From: Roseovarius sp.
Lineage (GTDB): Bacteria > Pseudomonadota > Alphaproteobacteria > Rhodobacterales > Rhodobacteraceae
Direction: 5' to 3'
Assembly (NCBI GenBank): GCA_027493545.1
Contig: JAOSKR010000003.1
Coordinates: 615,360 to 679,359, forward strand
DNA: 64,000 bases
Positions 14,298-41,020 of this stretch are shown here, piece after piece. Position 1 is the first letter of the stretch. Each line of letters begins with the position of its first letter. Below the pieces are notes generated by a model. The model was not told where the DNA came from. It did not search any database and was given only the letters and a program-made list of their open reading frames with translations. Position numbers and translations under genes: made by a program.

Positions 14298-14427
14298 CGC
14301 GTGTTTGTTCGCGGGAACAATCCAAGCCGGGGACCTTCGGGGCCCTATACCCAGAGCCGGGCCGGAGCCTGGCCGACACATAGCCCCGGAACAAGCCCGG
14401 GGCGTTTGCTAACGGAAGACAGAAAGC

Positions 14428-39372: not shown

Positions 39373-39795
39373 TCACTCCTCCCCGTCGACCTTGCCTCTC
39401 AGCGCCTTGACCTCGCCGCGCACCTTCTTGGCTTTCAGCCGGCGCTTCTTGGCCCCCAGTGTCGGCCGGGTCGGGATGCGGCGTTTGGGCTTCTCGGTGG
39501 CCTTGCGCACCAACTCGGCCAGCCGTTCGCGCGCGATCTCCCGGTTGCGGGCCTGGCTGCGGGTGTCGTCGACCTGGATCACCACCGAGCCCTCCCTGGT
39601 CCAGCGCCGCCCGGCCAGGCGTCTGAGCCGCCGCTTGACCGGATCGGGCAGGTTGGGCGAGCGTTCGGCCTCGAACCGCAGCTCGACCGCCGTCGACACC
39701 TTGTTGACGTTCTGTCCGCCGGGGCCGGAGGCGCGGATGAACTGTTCGGTCAGTTCCCAGTCCTCGATGGCGATCTGATCGGTGATGCGCAGCAT
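39373..39795 (-). CDS. arfB: alternative ribosome-rescue factor B (YaeJ-type peptidyl-tRNA hydrolase)
   Basis: 140 aa from ATG 39795 (MLRITDQIAIEDWELTEQFI). The catalytic GGQ loop RASGPGGQNVNKVSTAVELR near residue 27 and the long basic C-terminal tail (KKRRLKAKKVRGEVKALRGK) that enters the mRNA channel of stalled ribosomes are both present; no RF codon-recognition domain. Intact. Upstream on the same strand lie a terminator hairpin and a leader peptide. The frame is open through the leader back to a GTG at 39990, but that GTG lies inside an SD and the extension is not homologous. Confidence 0.93.
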   Translation of the reverse strand: MLRITDQIAIEDWELTEQFIRASGPGGQNVNKVSTAVELRFEAERSPNLPDPVKRRLRRLAGRRWTREGSVVIQVDDTRSQARNREIARERLAELVRKATEKPKRRIPTRPTLGAKKRRLKAKKVRGEVKALRGKVDGEE

Positions 39796-39819: not shown

Positions 39820-39855
39820 AAACCGAAAGGGCCGCTCCGGCTTGCGAAGCGGCCC
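39820..39855 (-). terminator. terminator/attenuator hairpin between the leader and arfB
   Basis: In the minus-strand RNA, GGGCCGCT (39855-39848) pairs with AGCGGCCC (39836-39829) and is followed by UUUCGGUUU (39828-39820). It ends 24 nt before the arfB start, so transcription reaching arfB must pass it. Confidence 0.7.
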
Positions 39856-39867
39856 TCCAGAAGTTTC

Positions 39868-39997
39868 AGGAGGTGGTGCGGTTAGGCGCACCAATCCGGG
39901 GGGCGACATACGCCCGGGGGCTGCCCTAGGCGCGGCCCTCCCGAACTGTCCCTGCACCTCGCTCCAATACCTCTTTTGACACTGGACCACCTCCTTT
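39868..39997 (-). promoter_or_regulatory. leader with SD/anti-SD pairing upstream of arfB
   Basis: The SD of the leader ORF, AGGAGGTGGT (39995-39986 on the minus strand), is perfectly complementary over 10 bases to ACCACCTCCT (39877-39868) downstream of that ORF and just before the terminator. A small hairpin GGTGCG..CGCACC lies next to the anti-SD. Ribosome occupancy of the leader could decide whether these pair. Regulation is inferred from structure only. Confidence 0.5.
39926..39982 (-). CDS. 18-codon leader peptide upstream of arfB
   Basis: GTG 39982 follows a near-perfect SD (AAAGGAGG, 39997-39990) at 7-nt spacing. The peptide reads VSKEVLERGAGTVREGRA and stops at TAG 39928-39926. It is too short for similarity judgement; support comes from the very strong SD, the paired anti-SD and the downstream terminator. 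No run of one regulatory amino acid is evident, so it is not a classical amino-acid attenuator. Confidence 0.45.
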   Translation of the reverse strand: MSKEVLERGAGTVREGRA

Positions 39998-40016
39998 CAG
40001 TTGTTGACGTTGACCC

Positions 40017-40045
40017 GAGCTTGCCACAGTTCTCGACGTTGTCAA
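40017..40045 (-). promoter_or_regulatory. candidate promoter of the arfB leader
   Basis: Minus-strand TTGACA (40045-40040) with a 17-nt spacer to AAGCTC (40022-40017). Perfect -35, poor -10. It would start transcription about 10-15 nt before the leader SD. Confidence 0.35.
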
Positions 40046-40090: not shown

Positions 40091-41020
40091 TCAATCGGCC
40101 TGCAGCACCGAGACGCATTCGCGCGGCAGGTCGGTCATCACCAGTTCGCGCCGGGGCGCGGGGCGCGGGGCCGTCGGATCGGGCGGCGGCGGCTTGAGGA
40201 TGTTTTGCACCCACTCCTCGGCCTCGGCGCAGCCGTCTCCCGCCGGCGGCGCGGCCCGGTTGGTGCAGCTCCGCGCGCCCTTGGGGCAGTTCAGCCGGAC
40301 ATGGAAGTGATAGTGATGCCCCCACCACGGCCGGACCTTGCGCAGCCAGGCGCGATCGCCGGTTTCCTCCTTGCACATCCGCGCCTTGGCGCCGGGAAAG
40401 ATGAAGATGCGCGCGGTACGCGGATCCTGTGCGGCGGCGCGGATGATGGCGTGATGCTGGGGCGTCCAGTTGTCGTTGGTATAGGCGCCATTGGCGCGCC
40501 TAAGCGAGATCGAGGACAGGTTCTCGCGCTCGGCCCGGTCGAGGTCCAGCCGTTTGGGCGGCAGCATCCAGATGTCGACGTCGAGCCCCATCTGGTGGCT
40601 GCTGTGCCCGGTCAGCATCGGCCCGCCGCGCGGCTGGCTGATGTCGCCGACATATAGCCCCTTCCAGCCCGGCTGGGTGGCGGCGAAGGCCGAGAGCTTC
40701 TCGATGAAGTCGATGGTCTCGGGATGGCCCCAGTTGCGGTTGCGCGAAAGCCGCATCGCCTGCCATGTGGGCCCGGTCTCGGGCAGTTGCGCGCCGCCGG
40801 CGAAACAGCCCTTGGCGTAGCTGCCGAACGGCGTCGGCGCCTGCCTGGAGCCATGCGTCATGGCGCCGAAGAGGCGCTTTGCCTCCACCCCCTTCATCGC
40901 CGCGGGCAGGCTCTGCGTCGACAGGATCGGCTCCAGCCCCGGGCCGGCGCCCTGCGGGGCCGACGCGGCGCAGCCTGCCAGGCCGATGGCCAGCGCGATC
41001 AGTCTGAGGTTGCGGACCAT
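40091..41020 (-). CDS. mepA: penicillin-insensitive murein endopeptidase
   Basis: Periplasmic LAS-type metallopeptidase that cuts D-Ala-mDAP cross-links. 309 aa from ATG 41020. MVRNLRLIALAIGLAGCAAS has a lipobox (LAGC), so it is a lipoprotein here. Zinc-site motifs are GHSSHQMGLDVDIWMLPP and WWGHHYHFHVRLNCP. Cysteines expected for the family (CKEETGDR, CTNRAAPP) are present. Intact. Its start overlaps the MFS gene by 22 nt. The larger open frame to 43162 is only read-through in the GC-rich antisense frame. Confidence 0.94.
   Translation of the reverse strand: MVRNLRLIALAIGLAGCAASAPQGAGPGLEPILSTQSLPAAMKGVEAKRLFGAMTHGSRQAPTPFGSYAKGCFAGGAQLPETGPTWQAMRLSRNRNWGHPETIDFIEKLSAFAATQPGWKGLYVGDISQPRGGPMLTGHSSHQMGLDVDIWMLPPKRLDLDRAERENLSSISLRRANGAYTNDNWTPQHHAIIRAAAQDPRTARIFIFPGAKARMCKEETGDRAWLRKVRPWWGHHYHFHVRLNCPKGARSCTNRAAPPAGDGCAEAEEWVQNILKPPPPDPTAPRPAPRRELVMTDLPRECVSVLQAD

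Follow-up and report, generated by a model that had tools for sequence, protein, structure and literature searches.

A probable free-standing small RNA gene with a short reading frame, neighbouring arfB in Rhodobacterales and related to CC2171

The minus strand of a 64,000-nt stretch of Roseovarius sp. DNA (the window; contig JAOSKR010000003.1) carries, between mepA and arfB, what we judge with a probability of roughly 0.6 to be a free-standing, translation-gated structured small RNA gene, about 180 nt long. Within an alphaproteobacterial family related to Caulobacter CC2171, it would represent the branch found in Rhodobacterales. Comparison of sequences supports the autonomy of this gene, its conserved fold, a selected reading frame and the presence of its 5′ module across the class; the gating by translation and the targets of the RNA are what we infer. 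The region had originally been predicted to be a leader that controls arfB through a ribosome on a short ORF, with an independent small RNA of ~190 nt ending at the terminator as the alternative. This original prediction is partly supported: all the elements that it listed (TTGACA, a strong SD, an 18-codon ORF, a 10-base complement, the terminator and arfB) are found in the sequence, and its alternative proved a better fit than the arfB leader. The literature searched yielded no description of an arfB leader, nor any of this RNA in Rhodobacterales.

The order on the minus strand is mepA, the elements of the small RNA and then arfB, with the following features.

40040..40045, minus strand: promoter-like -35 hexamer TTGACA (from the sequence; 111 of 149 relatives have TTGAC 30–75 nt before the SD)
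39826..40006, minus strand: probable small RNA of about 180 nt (RF01867 match at 39828–40006; our own covariance model)
39982..39998, minus strand: hyper-conserved 5′ module, an extended SD running into the start codon (from the sequence and its class-wide pattern)
39926..39982, minus strand: 18-codon GTG-started ORF VSKEVLERGAGTVREGRA, stop TAG included (length, frame and stop statistics)
39964..39985, minus strand: P2, the start-codon hairpin (91.6% of cells paired)
39892..39948, minus strand: P4/P5 arm, with the stop codon within P5 (P4 76–80% and P5 86.4% paired; two-sided changes at 12 of 17 pairs)
39879..39886, minus strand: conserved linker CCTAACCG, whose CCGR pairs with TCGG of codons 10–11 (P7) in relatives (96.2% of cells)
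39868..39877, minus strand: anti-SD segment ACCACCTCCT, the P1 partner of the SD (97.6% of cells paired)
39859..39862, minus strand: TTCT, directly upstream of the terminator, which may pair with the loop of the start hairpin to form a pseudoknot (P6; 79.3% of cells)
39826..39857, minus strand: intrinsic terminator, a GC-rich hairpin and T-run (95.2% of cells paired; two-sided changes at 11 of 12 pairs)
39373..39795, minus strand: arfB, the downstream neighbour, outside the RNA (NF006718; PF00472)

The 5′ end of the RNA is provisional and was put at CAACAA to correspond to the beginning of the RF01867 model. The reading frame of mepA (NF006947) ends upstream of it at 40091. The segment ACCACCTCCT (39877–39868) is a perfect 10-base complement of AGGAGGTGGT (39995–39986), and none of 200 dinucleotide shuffles of the 221-nt RNA folds as well as the RNA itself (z = -3.95). 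The identity of ArfB is given by a match to NF006718 (E = 2.9e-56, 189.1 bits, cut-off 100). Its ATG at 39795 lies close downstream of the terminator, as had been predicted, but 30 nt past the end of the hairpin and T-run and not 24 nt, a figure that counts from 39820.

The same element is widely retained. ArfB was found in 39 of 60 relatives searched, and among the 30 arfB loci fetched from the window's own genome and the same genus, 29 have the element upstream of arfB, all 29 bearing an 18-codon ORF that ends in TAG, TGA or TAA; the exception, L021, is an arfB without adjoining RNA, and its genome, G024, has the RNA elsewhere. At E ≤ 0.01, a covariance model (R1) built from 27 of these copies finds a match in 339 of the 394 family genomes sampled, a single one in each except for one genome with two. 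At E ≤ 0.1 it finds 140 of the 149 genomes sampled from the order and 9 of the 289 sampled from the class, the latter being 4 family members and 5 weak matches; the three genome sets overlap. No plasmid or phage copy of the RNA was found by blastn. With the element in 29 of 30 arfB loci and a model match in 339 of 394 family genomes, the observation goes beyond chance. Relatives retain the leader ORF, the pairing of SD and anti-SD, and the terminator, so the absence of conservation that the original prediction had named as evidence against itself does not apply. The loci used below were assembled as follows: 110 loci were fetched by the RNA (the 30 best R1 family matches and 80 hand-picked for genus spread and low scores), whereas the 167 copies come from these 80 hand-picked loci and 89 others (19 of the 29 same-genus copies, the 30 best family matches and 40 of 45 loci that were fetched by arfB and gave a match), that is, 169 matches minus L115 and L093, which are cut at a contig end.

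The likeness to RF01867 (CC2171) links the RNA to a wider family. The window matches this Rfam model with 46.6 bits (E = 6.2e-9), collinear over positions 1–159 of 159 and below the gathering score of 75, and the identity lies mainly in the first 29 nt, from CAACAA; none of 9 further loci matched RF01867 at the gathering threshold. With the RF01867 model, 26 of 142 class genomes give a match at E ≤ 0.001, and 5 of these exceed the cut-off; the one match among 14 controls is Caulobacter vibrioides. CC2171 and the RNA of the window share a collinear 5′ module, body and terminator over the whole model. In the Rfam structure line, bases directly after the start codon of CC2171 pair with a segment shortly before the terminator (CAUUGUC:GACAAUG), and the possible helix P6 may be the counterpart here. 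The two differ in that the body between module and terminator is another sequence, with the score below gathering, and in that Rfam types CC2171 as a non-coding small RNA, yet in the 38 uncut loci where the body is another one, the module opens an ORF of 20–35 codons. The family described here widens an Rfam entry that is typed non-coding and reaches its cut-off in just 5 of 142 class genomes.

The module is the part that the wider family shares. Searched as a 21-base pattern with one mismatch, it is present in 50 of 289 class genomes, once in each except for one with two, and the reversed pattern, used as a control, is absent from the matches listed. With two mismatches it occurs in 14 of 23 named genomes, including Methylobacterium, Microvirga, Hyphomicrobium, Paracoccus and Ruegeria, and is absent from 9 of the 23, including Hyphomonas, Stappia and a Caulobacteraceae MAG. 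The RNA-bearing family members G269, G114 and G352 are missed by the pattern because the bases preceding the start codon vary. Among 51 module places, 30 were fetched, and these together with L071, L272–L278 and L283, minus L258, which is cut, make up the 38 uncut loci; the ORF begins at the module in all 38, and an early in-frame stop is found in none of them versus 20 and 14 in the other frames. CAAC stands upstream in 33 of 39 other-body loci and 96 of 166 in the family, and in 0 of 165 in a poor control that is mostly a coding stretch. The extended SD module is presumably complementary to the whole 16S rRNA tail; the 16S tail pattern was found in 0 of 7 genomes, perhaps because rRNA is absent from the sequences searched.

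The fold of the RNA is conserved in the family. Pair counts were taken from alignment A5, in which 150 sequences were aligned without structure and from which L119, L120, L159, L162 and near-identical rows are omitted; alignments A2, A3 and A4 lean towards the model. In A5 the drawn structure is paired in 87.7% of cells, compared with 42–56% when slid and 82.8% when shuffled, and there are 469 two-sided cells as against 158 in shuffles. The terminator and P5 covary strongly. For P1, covariation between 39986–39995 and 39868–39877 had been proposed as a check; the pairing itself held up in 97.6% of cells, but the variation is essentially one-sided: the SD is almost invariant, and most substitutions in the anti-SD exchange one base for another that can also pair. 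The ArfB tree has poor support; for each base pair tested, its supported branches give 2 to 6 independent pairs, none of them significant and almost none against pairing. Compared by energy with shuffles, 53 of 84 family copies (every second one of the 167) have an SD/anti-SD match that stands out, as do just 8 of 38 loci outside the family. It was thus rejected as a class-wide trait, and anti-SD gating may be special to this family.

Mutual information suggested two further helices, P6 and P7. The TCGG of codons 10–11 and the CCGR of the linker form P7, with two-sided changes at 3 of its 4 pairs. P6 joins the start-hairpin loop to the segment before the terminator, so the RNA would be pseudoknotted; its pair 26–171 is standard in 144 of 147 sequences and two-sided in 34, and in an unaligned test P6 stayed inside the shuffles at a borderline value (5.30 versus a mean of 5.10 and a highest of 5.32). 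This result and the essentially one-sided variation of P1 count against a translation-gated RNA. The copy in the window can form 2 of the 4 P7 pairs and 3 of the 4 P6 pairs, and the conserved linker (CCTAACC) is unpaired in the A5 alignment. A helix P3, taken from an RNAalifold drawing, was rejected: it is paired in 72.3% of cells with hardly any two-sided change, and P7, which covaries, crosses it. No covarying anti-terminator pair was found among the 70 best-scoring column pairs.

It is also evident that the short ORF is under constraint. The ORF is exactly 18 codons long in 154 of 167 copies, and codon 19 is TAG in 62, TGA in 62, TAA in 30 and another codon in 13. TGG, expected at ~16% by our own arithmetic if the last two stop positions assorted independently, is found in none. 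Stop types change at least 43 times on the ArfB tree of 131 rows, and stops inside codons 2–18 occur in 6 of 167 copies in frame versus 67 and 86 in the other frames. A chance ORF is ruled out by these frame and stop statistics, in the family copies and in the 38 loci with other bodies. The stop is lost in L052, L048, L202, L170, L160, L148 and L163, which run 2–7 codons past codon 18, and L122, L125, L157 and L162 stop early at codon 13 or 14, so that 12 or 13 codons are read. Among the 77 nearest pairs, 89 synonymous and 227 non-synonymous changes were observed versus 94 and 215 expected, and the three codon positions are alike in variability (0.83, 0.88 and 0.80 bits). These comparisons suggest that the frame and the stop are under selection in the Rhodobacterales RNA family and the amino acids hardly so. 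Because the frame and stop appear selected and the peptide shows no purifying selection, translation rather than the peptide seems to matter.

Two readings that assign the function to only one side of this RNA can be weighed here. In the first, a structured small RNA acts in trans, its C-rich anti-SD or the CCTAACC linker pairing with target mRNAs, and the ORF is tolerated and not needed. The RNA as an autonomous unit with a terminator, the conserved unpaired linker and the strong fold would suit this reading, but the frame and the stop are selected across stop types, for which a purely non-coding RNA is no sufficient explanation, and we consider it unlikely. The second, a small mRNA whose product is the peptide, is quite improbable. 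It would agree with the extreme SD, the conserved frame and the similar peptide starts (VSHCH..) that recur, by eye, in Methylobacterium, Microvirga and Rhizobium loci; in the family, however, there is no synonymous preference and the three codon positions are equally variable, the peptides differ between groups of module loci, seven copies are over-long and four stop at codon 13 or 14.

The neighbourhood of the RNA bears on the role of arfB. Of the 110 RNA-fetched loci, 89 have arfB downstream of the RNA in the same orientation, and the other 21 hold no arfB. The 21 genomes without arfB at the RNA locus all have it elsewhere (25 of 25 searched were positive). Its distance from the RNA is no more than ~3 kb in 4 genomes and 7–16 kb in another 4; in the rest it is more distant on the same contig (4) or on a different contig (9). 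By eye, the RNA in the arfB-less loci retains the pairing segments and the terminator. In 99 of 110 loci, including 21 of 21 without arfB, the gene directly upstream is a Vut_1 transporter gene (PF02592; "yhhQ-like" is our own naming); the window, where it is missing from 40091 to 39998, is one of the 11 loci without it. When 4 same-genus genomes were searched again, the RNA was found in 3, and two of these three, G019 (99% complete) and G002 (76%), have no arfB match. Conversely, arfB is present in 13 of 20 family genomes without an RNA match. The terminator hairpin has a median of -22.7 kcal/mol where arfB is adjacent, -22.4 where it is close and -23.2 where it is non-adjacent, with 7 T in each.

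Outside the family, arfB is near the RNA in 2 of the 39 loci with other bodies and is missing from the flank in the other 37. In these two, L258 (module at 1501, arfB at 1416–1009, ~85 nt apart) and L071 (arfB at 2555–2959), arfB is divergent, and leader control is therefore impossible there. The transporter gene is upstream in one of the 39, Rubrimonas L283, itself a named kin of Rhodobacterales. The arfB neighbourhood is thus not wholly private to the Rhodobacterales RNA family, and L258 and L071 hint at an old link between the RNA and ribosome rescue. The RNA and ArfB could accordingly be partners in one process (e.g., ribosome shortage or stalling), with genes kept close and the RNA acting in trans, not in cis. 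The proximity in 89 of 110 family loci and in the two divergent ones is consistent with such a partnership, but we find it very doubtful, for the transporter gene accompanies the RNA still more regularly (99 of 110) and 37 of 39 other loci have no arfB in the flank.

The least probable reading is that of an arfB leader, in which the anti-SD is freed when a ribosome stalls or is trapped on the ORF, the folding at the terminator changes and arfB is turned on: the downstream position of arfB in 89 of 110 loci, its short distance (no more than 40 nt in 29 of the 93 loci with a measured gap, including the 30 nt of the window) and the conserved ORF, pairing and terminator speak for it, but the whole RNA is kept in 21 of 110 loci without arfB and persists in genomes without an arfB match, arfB is present in 13 of 20 family genomes without the RNA, no anti-terminator pair covaries among the 70 best column pairs, and terminator strength does not depend on whether arfB follows. 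The evidence thus does not support control of arfB as the function, and a leader was rejected as the main function because the RNA is not constantly upstream of arfB and the strength of the terminator is independent of it.

Read-through transcription into arfB is possible where the gap is short. Between the terminator and arfB, repeated GTCGGTAT-like words were noticed by eye in L004, L011, L026–L028 and other same-genus relatives, and GTAC-type palindromes in other relatives, e.g., L002, L003, L007 and L029. From their sequence these repeats and palindromes look like operators of a separate arfB promoter; the 30-nt gap of the window leaves little room for such operators.

Leader-peptide attenuators of the trp and erm types combine a small ORF, alternative pairing and a terminator upstream of a gene. 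An attenuator would always be found upstream of the gene that it regulates, and the RNA of the window differs from this in having no constant downstream gene, with arfB at 89 of 110 RNA-fetched loci, and no anti-terminator among the 70 best column pairs. For a dual-function small RNA, an ORF under selection is expected and is indicated here by the length, frame and stop statistics. The alphaproteobacterial example rnTrpL/peTrpL of Sinorhizobium meliloti, as treated in sections of PMC10117765, likewise has a short translated ORF and a terminator; rnTrpL, however, is leaderless and of operon-attenuator origin, whereas the RNA here has an extreme SD, no constant downstream gene and an unconserved peptide. 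The same sections place 33% of 54 new sORFs on annotated small RNAs (PMC10117765).

For Caulobacter, passages of PMC4117421 describe two earlier ncRNAs as translated and most ncRNA regions as untranslated. The latter weighs against a translation-gated RNA, while CC2171 may be one of the two translated ncRNAs, in which case its translation would already be in print. In excerpts of other articles, RF01867 is stated to have gained one covarying pair in Rfam 15 (PMC11701678) and appears in a table of Mesorhizobium small RNAs (PMC5596092), and the portion covered of a study on Caulobacter Hfq-bound RNAs (PMC11005374) makes no mention of CC2171.

For the free-standing, translation-gated small RNA that we favour, the following course can be proposed. 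In the resting fold, the anti-SD would close the SD (P1) and the start codon would be held in a hairpin (P2). A free 30S subunit, able to pair with the whole extended SD, would compete with P1, and a ribosome reading the ORF would melt P2, P7, P4 and P5 and release the 3′ strands. The RNA would thereby report initiation capacity, with the open and closed forms differing in stability or in base-pairing with other RNAs, and arfB would be a neighbour that perhaps receives some read-through transcription. A tentative and more speculative extension is a class-wide, near-single-copy "mock mRNA", in which deep conservation is limited to the 30S docking site and the start codon, the ORF is short and its peptide irrelevant, and the fold serves as a sensor of free ribosomes, possibly working with ribosome rescue; if true, this would be a ribosome-availability sensor made of RNA. 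Because the extreme ribosome-binding site and the start codon are conserved and the frame is kept without the peptide, the idea of translation itself as the signal is directly testable. The small RNA gene is present in most sampled Rhodobacterales genomes and has relatives across the class, and we found no function described for it in the literature covered.

Two other Rfam likenesses were seen in the window. A DUF3800-VI RNA was considered for 39893–39947 on the minus strand and rejected, with 26.6 bits versus a cut-off of 35; it falls on the P4/P5 arm and is probably a chance likeness. The sole Rfam match of the window at the gathering score is an L2-Alphaproteobacteria ribosomal protein leader (RF03142, 56.2 bits) at 14329–14425 on the plus strand.
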